A DNA stretch of 64,000 nucleotides. It comes from an uncultured Pelagibacteraceae bacterium (GTDB lineage: Bacteria > Pseudomonadota > Alphaproteobacteria > Pelagibacterales > Pelagibacteraceae). The stretch is from assembly GCA_902582345.1 (NCBI GenBank), contig CACHRU010000001.1:179943-243942 (forward strand), in the 5' to 3' direction. The position numbers were made by a program, and so were the translations under genes. Every line of letters begins with the position of its first letter. Position 1 is the stretch's first letter. The notes beneath the pieces were generated by a model that saw nothing but the letters and a program-made list of their open reading frames with translations, was not told the DNA's origin and made no database searches. Positions 19,428-39,939 of the stretch are shown one piece after another.

Positions 19428-19838
19428 TTACAGATCTTTTTTCATTGATGCCATATCACTTAAATGGAATTTTAAGGCTTCATTGGAAAGTCTGATTTCT
19501 TGTAAGAATAAAAAAATTGAAAATATCATACAGAGACAGCAAAATGCGAAACTTAATCGTGCTTGGAAGGTATAATCAAGATAAAGAAGCAAAACTGTAA
19601 GCATGTTAAAAAGAAAACCAAAAGCAGCACAACCCATTACATATTTTAAATAGTTTGTTCTTTTATTAAGTACATGAAGTTGGTTTTCCCACTCTGGTGG
19701 AACTTTCTTTTCAAAAGTATATTGATCATGAATTTTTCTTATCAGAGCACTTAAAGTATGAAACCGATTGCTATACATAGTCATCATTAGTGGTATTGCG
19801 GGAAACATTAAAGCTGCTACTGTATAATCAATGTCCAT
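19428..19838 (-). CDS. DUF2721-like membrane protein
   Basis: Polytopic 136 aa protein with FPAIPLMMTMYSNRFHTLSALIRKIH pattern. Confidence 0.65.
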   Translation of the reverse strand: MDIDYTVAALMFPAIPLMMTMYSNRFHTLSALIRKIHDQYTFEKKVPPEWENQLHVLNKRTNYLKYVMGCAAFGFLFNMLTVLLLYLDYTFQARLSFAFCCLCMIFSIFLFLQEIRLSNEALKFHLSDMASMKKDL

Positions 19839-36229: not shown

Positions 36230-36907
36230 CTACATCAAAGAATTTAAAAAAGGCTGCAACTTCGCAGCCTTTTTTTTTGCAAAAAATAAACACGCTGTTG
36301 AATTTAAAATTAACCCATCTTTAAGTACCCTTAAATTGTTATCAGCTAAAGTTTTGCCAGTTGAAGTGATATCTGTAATAATTTCTGAAGATCCTATAAA
36401 TGGGTATGTTTCTGTGGCTCCGAGACTTGGAATAATTTTATATTGAGTAACTCCTTTAGAAATCAAAAAATCATTAGTTAAATTTGGATATTTGGTAGCA
36501 ACTCTTAATCTTGTATTTCTTTTAGACTTAATGTCAAAAGCTACTTCCTCAAGGTCAGCAATTGTTTGTACATCTATCCAATCATCTGGGACTGCAACAA
36601 CTAAATTTGCATTTCCAAAGTCAAGTCTTCGCTTAATCACAATCTTATCCCTTAGATTTTTATCAGATTCATTCAGAAGATCTAATCCAGATACACCTAT
36701 GTCTAAAGTACCATCACTTAATCTCTGAATAATTTCTTTTGCGTGAAGAAAAATTACCTTGATATTAGAATTATTTTCAATATTTCCAAAATAATTTCTC
36801 TCTTTTTCACTTTGTAAAATTTTTAATCCACTTTTATTAAAAAAAGATATTGTTTTGTCTCTTAATCTTCCTTTGCTGGGTAATCCTATACTAATTTTAT
36901 CTTTCAT
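36230..36907 (-). CDS. hisG: ATP phosphoribosyltransferase, short catalytic form
   Basis: IGLPSKGRLRDKTISFF, DIGVSGLDLL, ITDITSTGKTLADNNL; 225 aa short form paired with hisZ. Confidence 0.95.
   Translation of the reverse strand: MKDKISIGLPSKGRLRDKTISFFNKSGLKILQSEKERNYFGNIENNSNIKVIFLHAKEIIQRLSDGTLDIGVSGLDLLNESDKNLRDKIVIKRRLDFGNANLVVAVPDDWIDVQTIADLEEVAFDIKSKRNTRLRVATKYPNLTNDFLISKGVTQYKIIPSLGATETYPFIGSSEIITDITSTGKTLADNNLRVLKDGLILNSTACLFFAKKKAAKLQPFLNSLM
36246..36278 (+). terminator. Intrinsic terminator hairpin for groESL, inside hisG coding region
   Basis: aaaaaaGGCTGC-AACTTC-GCAGCCttttttttt, 6-bp GC stem plus A/T extension followed by T9; 22 nt after groEL stop. Confidence 0.85.
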
Positions 36908-37941
36908 ATATTTTTTAAGTTAATTGCTGCTCCTACTGCTGGAATATTTTTTTTAGCACCTAAACTTTTTAACAGATCGTCATAACGACCACCTCTTGCG
37001 ATTTCTTTCTTTCCCGAAAATACCTCGAATACTATTCCTGTATAATATTCTACGTCTCTACCAAAATTAGTGATAAAATTTATATCATCTTTTATCTTTT
37101 TTAGATTTTGAATAGATTTAAAATCTTTGAAAATATTCTTTTTTAAATTATTCTTTTTTGCAAAATCTAATAATTTATCGTCAAGCATAGATAACTTGCA
37201 GTTTATTTTTAAATATGATTTTATAATTTTTACAATTTGTTTCCCATCACTAAAAGATCTTGGATCTTTAATTTTTTTTTCAAATCTATTTAAAATTTCC
37301 AATATTGATCTTCCGGCAATTAATTTGTCCTGATCTAACTTTTTCATCTCATAGAACTTCTTTTTATCAGTATCAAATGTAACAGCATCAATATCTGTAT
37401 TTTCTTCTAATCGTATTAAAAGTTCTTCAAAATAACTTGGTCTCCAAAAATGTCTTATTAATCTTAATTTCCATCTTTCAGGCATATCAAGCGAGTTAAT
37501 TAAACTTTTGAATAAATTTATATCACCAACTTTAATTTGAATTTTTTTATTATTTATTTTTTTTGCTGCACTTAAAATTGTACTGATCACTTTATAATCA
37601 TCATGAATTCGATTTTTTGAGCCAAAGATCTCTATACCTAATTGATCATTGATAAAATTAGAACCTTTATTATTAGATCTTCTATATGCTTGACCGGAAT
37701 AATAAATTTTTGAAGAAGATTTTTTTTTCAAAAAGCTTATACAAGATGCAACCGTTAAATCGGGTCTCAAACACATAGTTTTTCCATCTTCTCTTTTAAA
37801 AGTAAGCATGGATCGTCTAAATTTTTCCCCTGATCTCTCGATTATATACTCGGAGTCAAGTAAAACATCTGGTTCTGACAAAACAAAACTATTTTTCTTG
37901 AAAATTTTAATTATGACTTCAGATAATTTTTTTGATTTCAT
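36904..37941 (-). CDS. hisZ: ATP phosphoribosyltransferase regulatory subunit (HisRS paralog)
   Basis: HisRS-like catalytic fold: LRPDLTVASCISFL, GRDVEYYTGIVFEVF, ARGGRYDDLL, no anticodon domain; directly upstream of short hisG. Confidence 0.88.
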   Translation of the reverse strand: MKSKKLSEVIIKIFKKNSFVLSEPDVLLDSEYIIERSGEKFRRSMLTFKREDGKTMCLRPDLTVASCISFLKKKSSSKIYYSGQAYRRSNNKGSNFINDQLGIEIFGSKNRIHDDYKVISTILSAAKKINNKKIQIKVGDINLFKSLINSLDMPERWKLRLIRHFWRPSYFEELLIRLEENTDIDAVTFDTDKKKFYEMKKLDQDKLIAGRSILEILNRFEKKIKDPRSFSDGKQIVKIIKSYLKINCKLSMLDDKLLDFAKKNNLKKNIFKDFKSIQNLKKIKDDINFITNFGRDVEYYTGIVFEVFSGKKEIARGGRYDDLLKSLGAKKNIPAVGAAINLKNI

Positions 37942-39253
37942 TAACTAATTCCTTTATTTCAATTGATCTTTCATCTCCTGAACTTAAATTTCTTAAAGTA
38001 GGTTTACCTGATTTAATTTCATCTTCGCCATATAAAATTACAGCCGGAGAGTTGATTTTATTTGCATATTCCATTTGTTTTTTTAATTTACCTTCGCCAG
38101 GATATATTTCGGTACTTACACCAGCTTCTCTTAATAATTTTTGTAAATCGATGTATTCCTTCATAGAGTTTTTACTAAATACACAAATCACAACAGGTTT
38201 AGATTGTTTAATTTTAAATTCCTTTTTTTGCATCAATGCATAAACTAATCGATCTAAACCTATTGATATACCGGTGGCAGGAGCATCATAGTTACCAAAA
38301 TTATTGACTAAATTATCATATCTACCCCCGCCACCGATTGAACCAAATTGAATTACTTGACCTTTATTATTTTTAACATCAAATTTCAAATTCACCTCAA
38401 AAATTACACCAGTGTAATATTCAAGCCCTCTTATAATCGAGGGATCAAATTCGAAATTACTGAAATTATAATTTTTAAAAATTTTAAATATTTCTTCTAA
38501 GTCTTGTGTTTCCGGTAACTTTTTCTTCAACTCATTTTCTATAATCTCAATATTCTTCGAACTTAAGTTTGCTCCTTTTGTAAAGTCTCCAGATTTATCT
38601 TTCCTGCCTTCGCCTAACAATTGTTTAACCCCGTTCCATCCAAGTCTATCAATTTTATCTAAAGCTCTTAAAGAAGAAAGTTTTTGCTGTTCATCTTTAA
38701 TATTAATTTTTTTGAATAATTCTTCAGTTATTTTTCTTGATGAAATTTTTATTACATATTCCGACTTAAGTAGACCACATTTTTCAAGAATTTCTGAAAT
38801 CATCACACATAATTCTGCATCAGCTTGCAAACTTTTGGTTCCGACAAAATCAGCATCAAATTGTAAGAATTCTCTGAATCTTCCTGGTCCAGGTTTTTCG
38901 TTTCGCCAGACTGTCCCAAGTTGATATCTTTTAAACGGTTTTGGAATTTCTAGATAATTTTTTGCTACATACCTTGCTAAGGGTGCAGTAAGATCATACC
39001 TTAAAGATAGCCATTTACTCTCATCTTTAAATGAAAAGACACCTCCATCTGGTCTATCTTTATCAGGTAAAAATTTTCCAATGCTTTCCGTATACTCGAA
39101 ACTTGGTGTTTCAAGATATTTAAATCCATACCGAATCATAACTTCTTTGATATTAGAAATTATAAAATCACGTACGAGCAATTCTTTTTCTTGTCTATCA
39201 ATAAACCCTAATGGTAAATCTTTTAAAGGTTTGTTTTTTTTATTTTTCGTCAT
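37919..39253 (-). CDS. hisS: Histidyl-tRNA synthetase
   Basis: LRYDLTAPLARYVA, QFDADFVG, RGLEYYTGVIFEV, GGGGRYDNLV; true start ATG at 39253 (MTKNKKNK), track start lies inside tRNA-His. Confidence 0.95.
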   Translation of the reverse strand: MTKNKKNKPLKDLPLGFIDRQEKELLVRDFIISNIKEVMIRYGFKYLETPSFEYTESIGKFLPDKDRPDGGVFSFKDESKWLSLRYDLTAPLARYVAKNYLEIPKPFKRYQLGTVWRNEKPGPGRFREFLQFDADFVGTKSLQADAELCVMISEILEKCGLLKSEYVIKISSRKITEELFKKINIKDEQQKLSSLRALDKIDRLGWNGVKQLLGEGRKDKSGDFTKGANLSSKNIEIIENELKKKLPETQDLEEIFKIFKNYNFSNFEFDPSIIRGLEYYTGVIFEVNLKFDVKNNKGQVIQFGSIGGGGRYDNLVNNFGNYDAPATGISIGLDRLVYALMQKKEFKIKQSKPVVICVFSKNSMKEYIDLQKLLREAGVSTEIYPGEGKLKKQMEYANKINSPAVILYGEDEIKSGKPTLRNLSSGDERSIEIKELVNEIKKII

Positions 39254-39257
39254 TGTT

Positions 39258-39334
39258 TGGTACAGCAGGGTGGATTCGAACCACCGACCCCTAGTTCCAC
39301 AAACTAGTGCTCTAACCAACTGAGCTACTGCTGC
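39258..39334 (-). tRNA. tRNA-His(GTG), CCA encoded, no genomic G-1, A73
   Basis: Minus strand: GCAGCAG TA GCTC AGTTGGTTA GAGC A CTAGT TTGTGGA ACTAG GGGTC GGTGG TTCGAAT CCACC CTGCTGT A CCA folds as full cloverleaf with GTG anticodon. Confidence 0.97.
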
Positions 39335-39510
39335 ATAACTCCTTTTTATATTAATTATTAATAAATTTATATTTTAAAATTATGTAATGATTTAGCTAAG
39401 CAATAGCCTAGCGTGCATTCTGTGAGAATGTGAATTATTTTGGAATGTATTTTTTATAAACATTAATACCTATGTAGGAAAAAAATGTGTCTTTTTCAAG
39501 GATTAATTAA

Positions 39511-39541
39511 CGGGACGAGCTCAAAAAGCCTTTGTCCCGCT
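39511..39541 (-). terminator. Candidate stem-loop downstream of cspA
   Basis: Minus strand GCGGGACaaaggctttttgagctcGTCCCGt, inverted repeat 24 nt past the cspA stop; U tract after stem is weak. Confidence 0.5.
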
Positions 39542-39565
39542 AATTATAGTTTGGAAAATTTAGAA

Positions 39566-39778
39566 TTAAGATGTTTTCTGCAATTTAACTGCAGCAGGAC
39601 CTTTTTCCGTGCTTTCCACTTCGAACGTTAGCTCATCACCTTCGTTTAAATATTTTAAACCAGCTTCTCTAACAGCTGAAGAATGAACGAACACGTCTTT
39701 TTCTTTGTCTTCTCGCTCAATGAAACCATATCCTTTAGTACCATTGAACCACTTTACTTTACCTTTTAGTGTACTCAT
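39566..39778 (-). CDS. Cold-shock protein, CspA family
   Basis: [31 protein letters not shown]. Confidence 0.98.
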
Positions 39779-39939
39779 TATTTACTTATCCTTATTGTTA
39801 TTTAACTTATGCTAATTTAAAACTAATATAATTAATTTAAACTAACCCTGCCTCTTTACTAAAATTAGCTAGATAATGTCAAGAATTGATTGCAGTTTTT
39901 CAAATATATTTGCATATATTGTCTATTTTGCCACAAGAT

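Follow-up and report, generated by a model that had tools for sequence, protein, structure and literature searches.

Does a tRNA-His gene that lies almost directly against the gene of its own synthetase indicate regulation in SAR11 bacteria, and if so, which element senses histidine? We examined this question in a stretch of 64,000 nucleotides (the window) from an uncultured Pelagibacteraceae bacterium, whose genome is an incomplete assembly of 0.98 Mb with named relatives among Pelagibacteraceae and Fonsibacter. The genes concerned are the following:

39258-39334, minus strand: tRNA-His(GTG) with encoded CCA, A73 and G1:U72 (ARAGORN and Rfam tRNA)
39254-39257, minus strand: spacer AACA from the CCA to the hisS ATG (length 3-6 nt across all 97 distinct loci)
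37919-39253, minus strand: hisS, histidyl-tRNA synthetase (TIGR00442, 371.7 bits, above cut-off)
36904-37941, minus strand: hisZ-like, ATP phosphoribosyltransferase regulatory subunit (best matches to HisZ models and Pfam tRNA-synt_His)
36230-36907, minus strand: hisG, ATP phosphoribosyltransferase (TIGR00070, above cut-off)

The first-pass annotation had placed tRNA-His 4 nt before hisS, with hisZ and hisG behind it, and both statements agree with the sequence. On the minus strand the order is CTGCTGTACCA-AACA-ATGACGAAA, with the hisS ATG at 39253, and profile matches of the ORFs give hisS, then the hisZ-like gene, then hisG. The hisZ-like and hisG ORFs overlap downstream of hisS; in the profile search, the HisZ model matches of the former fall below the curated cut-offs. 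The acceptor stem of the tRNA (GCAGCAG/CTGCTGT-A-CCA) is preceded by T and has A73 without a templated G-1:C73 pair, as in the A73-type tRNA-His/HisRS pair of Alphaproteobacteria. This derived alphaproteobacterial tRNA-His has been reported for most SAR11 strains (PMC3937112). A mini-ORF at the start of the tRNA (ATG-CAG-CAG-TAG) was rejected, since several relatives carry C before GCAG and thus have no ATG.

Conservation of the junction was followed through 29 loci of the same genus and then through 97 distinct Pelagibacteraceae upstream regions, which represent about a dozen genera in a sample that includes many close relatives and draft genomes. The gap between tRNA and hisS measured 4 nt in 72 of these regions, 5 nt in 22 (three of them read by eye, where an internal ACCA occurs), 3 nt in two and 6 nt in one. 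The first-pass annotation had named conservation of the 4-nt spacing across SAR11 as a check; in all 97 loci the spacer is A-rich and 3-6 nt long, mostly 4 nt. The junction is kept even at 43-52% HisRS identity and with a strongly changed tRNA-His sequence. One genus (g7) holds several HisRS lineages, with about 72% versus 43-52% identity to the window (L101-L103, L106-L112); their tRNA-His sequences differ, yet leader type and junction are the same in all. Some g7 genomes (G063, G077, G120) carry, ahead of hisS, a tRNA-His whose D and T loops are non-canonical (T loop AGCGUAA), as at L109:1423-1493 and also in L107 and L112; ARAGORN misses this tRNA, and the Rfam tRNA model detects it at 50.6 bits.

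In a HisRS tree, the tRNA-linked sequences form a single clade (SH-aLRT 97), sister to family f2. Across the class, an ATG 2-8 nt downstream of a tRNA-His-like CCA was observed in 24 of 385 genomes, and in none of the 23 other alphaproteobacterial genomes, that is, all but the window's own, was this ATG followed by hisS. Among about 50 other alphaproteobacterial hisS loci, tRNA-His was found within 600 nt upstream only in L256 (-280 to -204). A literature search returned nothing direct on SAR11 start sites or on tRNA genes inside cognate synthetase operons. The copy before hisS is apparently the sole tRNA-His: in six single-contig g7 genomes the tRNA-His pattern finds only this copy, all other matches being unrelated, and the contigs of a genome of the window's genus (G220) hold one tRNA-His; the window's own assembly is incomplete.

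Is the tight spacing itself informative? In G220, of which about 0.8 Mb was read, a same-strand ORF starts at most 9 nt after the CCA for 5 of about 22 tRNAs. Two of these junctions served as controls: tRNA-Gln before a CCA-adding-enzyme-like gene (PolyA_pol head domain), an adjacency kept in nine genomes of other genera, and tRNA-Leu(CAA) before an acyl-CoA-synthetase-like gene, kept in eight. The latter gene was named by eye, and a scan of 80 residues gave no Pfam match. Gaps at both controls are mostly a few nt, and the neighbours are not the synthetases of these tRNAs. The tRNA-Gln gene lies directly 5′ of the CCA-adding-enzyme-like gene family-wide (L125:4420-4573 in G220; L288-L296). Because tight junctions between tRNAs and genes are common and equally persistent in the controls, spacing alone is no argument for regulation, and the suggestion that the 4 nt are a sign of coupling is not supported by this comparison; the spacing mostly reflects genome streamlining. 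The missing Shine-Dalgarno sequence at hisS is likewise ordinary, because only about 10% of unambiguous starts have an SD-like motif in front of them, compared with 4% in a control stretch.

These controls bear on the possibility that control is exerted at the junction itself, where maturation of the tRNA or binding of HisRS would determine whether hisS is translated, each transcript yielding either a tRNA or a HisRS mRNA. The persistence of a 3-6 nt junction next to strongly diverged tRNA-His and HisRS sequences is consistent with such a role. In addition, RNase E/G is present, and the search for RNase Z gave nothing above the curated cut-off, so that 3′ maturation might need a cut near the hisS start. 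Against this, the tRNA-Gln and tRNA-Leu(CAA) junctions are just as tight before genes that are not synthetases, the spacing varies from 3 to 6 nt, and apart from the tRNA nothing resembling an operator was seen. We consider this explanation unlikely.

A sensor-like element is found further upstream, where the first-pass annotation had noted none. The features of this region are:

39392-39463, minus strand: small ORF MFIKNTFQNNSHSHRMHARLLLS, putative histidine leader peptide (His-rich in 97 of 97 loci)
39416-39430, minus strand: upstream hairpin P1, CATTC-TCACA-GAATG, over His codons (same-genus comparison and fold)
39395-39412, minus strand: hairpin P2, GCTAGGC-TATT-GCTTAGC, directly 3′ of the last His codon and ending at the stop
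39494-39499, minus strand: candidate -35 box TTGAAA of the leader promoter (consensus match only)
39471-39476, minus strand: candidate -10 box TACATA, 17 nt after the -35 box (predicted from sequence and relatives)

In all 97 loci, a small ORF of roughly 20-26 codons with 2-6 His codons ends 42-69 nt before the tRNA. At least three His codons are present in 91 of the 97, compared with about 4% of shuffled sequences. The peptides differ between genera (MKNIVLKHSHHHFHAKHGLGN, MIKKYISTHRHHPHAEHALS and MIKKVQITINTHRHHHGCKAIY are examples), and the last His is invariant, encoded 54 times by CAC and 43 times by CAT; both codons are also used at the remaining His positions. Clustered codons of the regulated amino acid that are conserved at the amino-acid level, as is characteristic of leader peptides, are thus present throughout the sample. 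His-rich sORFs also arise by chance, with 29 in the G220 contigs, and the others there are remote from a downstream gene start, lie within another ORF or, in one case, are antisense to a gene. A second His-rich sORF in the window (MKPIAIHSHH, 19758-19790) was rejected, as it is antisense within an ORF of 136 aa. Judged by these sequence patterns, the conserved element upstream of the tRNA is a histidine leader peptide, which probably senses histidine shortage. A published screen for structured RNAs in P. ubique excluded intergenic regions that contain tRNAs from its table of candidates (PMC2704228), and this exclusion may be why such a leader is absent from that list.

The start of the transcript can be predicted from the upstream sequence. 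In 85 of the 97 loci the sORF ATG is preceded by a TTG-box at a distance of 34-37 nt, and in 10 more the distance is 39-42 nt; in shuffled sequences such a box occurs in 13% for the whole range of 30-42 nt. Relatives carry TAAATA at the position of the candidate -10 box. A promoter consensus scan did not flag the candidate -35/-10 pair. Transcription is predicted to start at or near the sORF ATG, and the sORF is probably leaderless, because the TTG-box sits where a -35 box would be if transcription began at the ATG. Further upstream, a strong hairpin (GCGGGAC..GTCCCG, 39511-39540) follows a cold-shock gene (39566-39778) and is itself followed by TTAATTAAT, with no U-run; hairpins also occur at this position in relatives.

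Both hairpins of the leader were compared among relatives. P1 shows paired changes within the window's genus (CACTC/GAGTG and CACAC/GTGTG) and is missing from some genera. Every distinct segment has a P2 stem that begins immediately 3′ of the last His codon (in a few, 1-2 nt inside it), and this place is kept even where the peptide tail and the distance to the stop (9, 21 or 24 nt) vary. The stems themselves can be wholly different in sequence: GCUAAGC/GCUUAGC, GCUGGC/GCUAGC, AUGGCU/GGCCAU and AUAGCC/GGCUAU. In the main P2 type, 133 of 133 pair cells are standard, compared with 6-56% in slid controls; the changes within this type are one-sided, to G-U, and do not show covariation. The hairpin thus lies at or beside the last His codon, as in attenuators, where the position of the ribosome would be expected to affect it. 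No mutually exclusive antiterminator arrangement was observed, as P1 and P2 do not overlap; P2 has no U-run, and no terminator-like site was found in window positions 39200-39800, including the interval between sORF and tRNA. Rho is encoded in seven of seven genomes tested, and a Rho-dependent or other output in place of an intrinsic terminator is possible. Searches of window positions 38900-39900 gave no match up to E=1 for either Rfam His_leader (RF00514) or T-box. Two further candidates were rejected by eye: a HisRS operator mimicking the anticodon loop, as P2 loops show no GUG-centred anticodon-like loop, and base-pairing between the leader and the D-arm of the tRNA, which amounts to about five weak pairs that are lost where the tRNA changed.

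The missing terminator is what would be expected if the locus had no special regulation at all, with streamlining and inherited synteny explaining the junction, a promoter of its own in the AT-rich stretch serving the tRNA, and the sORF being the remnant of a decayed his attenuator. Short junctions are indeed common, and TATAAA-like motifs precede the tRNA in many relatives. However, the promoter scan gave no minus-strand site before tRNA-His, and a remnant would not retain His through synonymous changes together with a fixed hairpin in 97 of 97 loci across deep divergence, which makes this account improbable. AGGAG-like letters occur just 5′ of the tRNA (39335-39341) in most genera. The idea that the folded tRNA brings this Shine-Dalgarno sequence (AGGAG, 39337-39341) next to the hisS AUG, for which AGGA/GGGA in same-genus loci would speak, is very unlikely and was rejected, as the motif is missing in several genera (g8, g12, g15) that keep the junction and SD use in the lineage is low.

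The preferred reading, an attenuator-like histidine leader, can be compared with known systems. Histidine leader-peptide attenuators are represented by the his operon of E. coli and Salmonella (Rfam His_leader), and the window resembles them in that a short ORF upstream of histidine genes contains clustered His codons and adjoins a hairpin. It differs in that no intrinsic terminator was found, that the His codons are interspersed and do not form a long run, that the sORF is probably leaderless, and that a tRNA gene stands between the leader and the first protein gene. In pheST of E. coli, which is attenuated through a Phe-rich leader peptide, a synthetase operon is likewise sensed via codons for its own amino acid, but with a different amino acid, a true terminator and no known tRNA gene in the operon. 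Adjacent cognate tRNA and synthetase genes are also known from pylT-pylS clusters; unlike these, the window has a canonical amino acid, an apparently sole tRNA-His and a leader peptide in front. In Firmicutes, hisS is under T-box control (PMC2965389), where charging of tRNA-His controls hisS as proposed here; in the window, however, the tRNA would be sensed through translation of the leader peptide and not be bound by the mRNA. His leader peptides also precede hisS*/hisZ in bacilli (PMC2965389).

Closer relatives point to the origin of this arrangement. In sister family f2, hisS-hisZ-hisG is preceded by a leader (MIVFTHHHIHI, MFKFKHYHYHI) and a hairpin, with no tRNA between them; where seen, its tRNA-His gene is on the same strand at a distance of about 1.4 kb upstream, and in the locus read it adjoins a second tRNA (Phe by eye). 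Some Caulobacteraceae have His-rich leaders of the MTRFAHHHGHHHPT type about 200-250 nt upstream of hisS (L250, L255, L263, L271, L281, L286). These leaders match the window in position before the hisS-hisZ-hisG operon and in the kind of peptide, but without the intervening tRNA-His. They also differ from the window in that the f2 hairpin is followed by a C-run and a U-run (ACAACCCC and a U-rich stretch) and the Caulobacteraceae stem is GC-rich. The simplest history would be an old histidine leader at hisS-hisZ-hisG and a single insertion of tRNA-His, between this leader and hisS, in the ancestor of Pelagibacteraceae.

Leader peptides of this kind work via ribosome stalling. Overall, the best explanation of the locus is a histidine leader-peptide (attenuator-like) operon holding tRNA-His, hisS, hisZ and hisG, presumably co-transcribed, to which we assign a probability of about 0.7. 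Transcription would begin at or beside the sORF AUG, and when charged tRNA-His is scarce, ribosomes would stall on the His codons. P2 would be free with the ribosome on the first His codons and melted with the ribosome near the end of the ORF, so that a stall would alter hairpin formation and allow more read-through into tRNA-His-hisS-hisZ-hisG. RNase P and 3′ processing would then excise the tRNA, leaving the hisS mRNA with 3-6 leader bases at most. The histidine-linked control suggested by the first-pass annotation is therefore retained in part: the conserved block and the His leader argue for it, and nothing specific points to tRNA maturation or HisRS binding as the sensor. Maturation of the tRNA could conceivably compete with the hisS start, given the presence of RNase E/G and the lack of any RNase Z match above the curated cut-off. 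A combined arrangement, in which a leaderless His-sensing peptide gene heads the sole tRNA-His/synthetase transcript and maturation competes with the hisS start codon to give tRNA or enzyme, seems unlikely.

If the leader-peptide reading is true, the operon would form a compact feedback loop, as it would itself supply charged tRNA-His, the product that is sensed. The leader would govern the only tRNA-His gene found, the synthetase that charges this tRNA and the entry step of histidine synthesis, in SAR11 bacteria, which rank with the most abundant cells of the ocean and are believed to possess few regulators.
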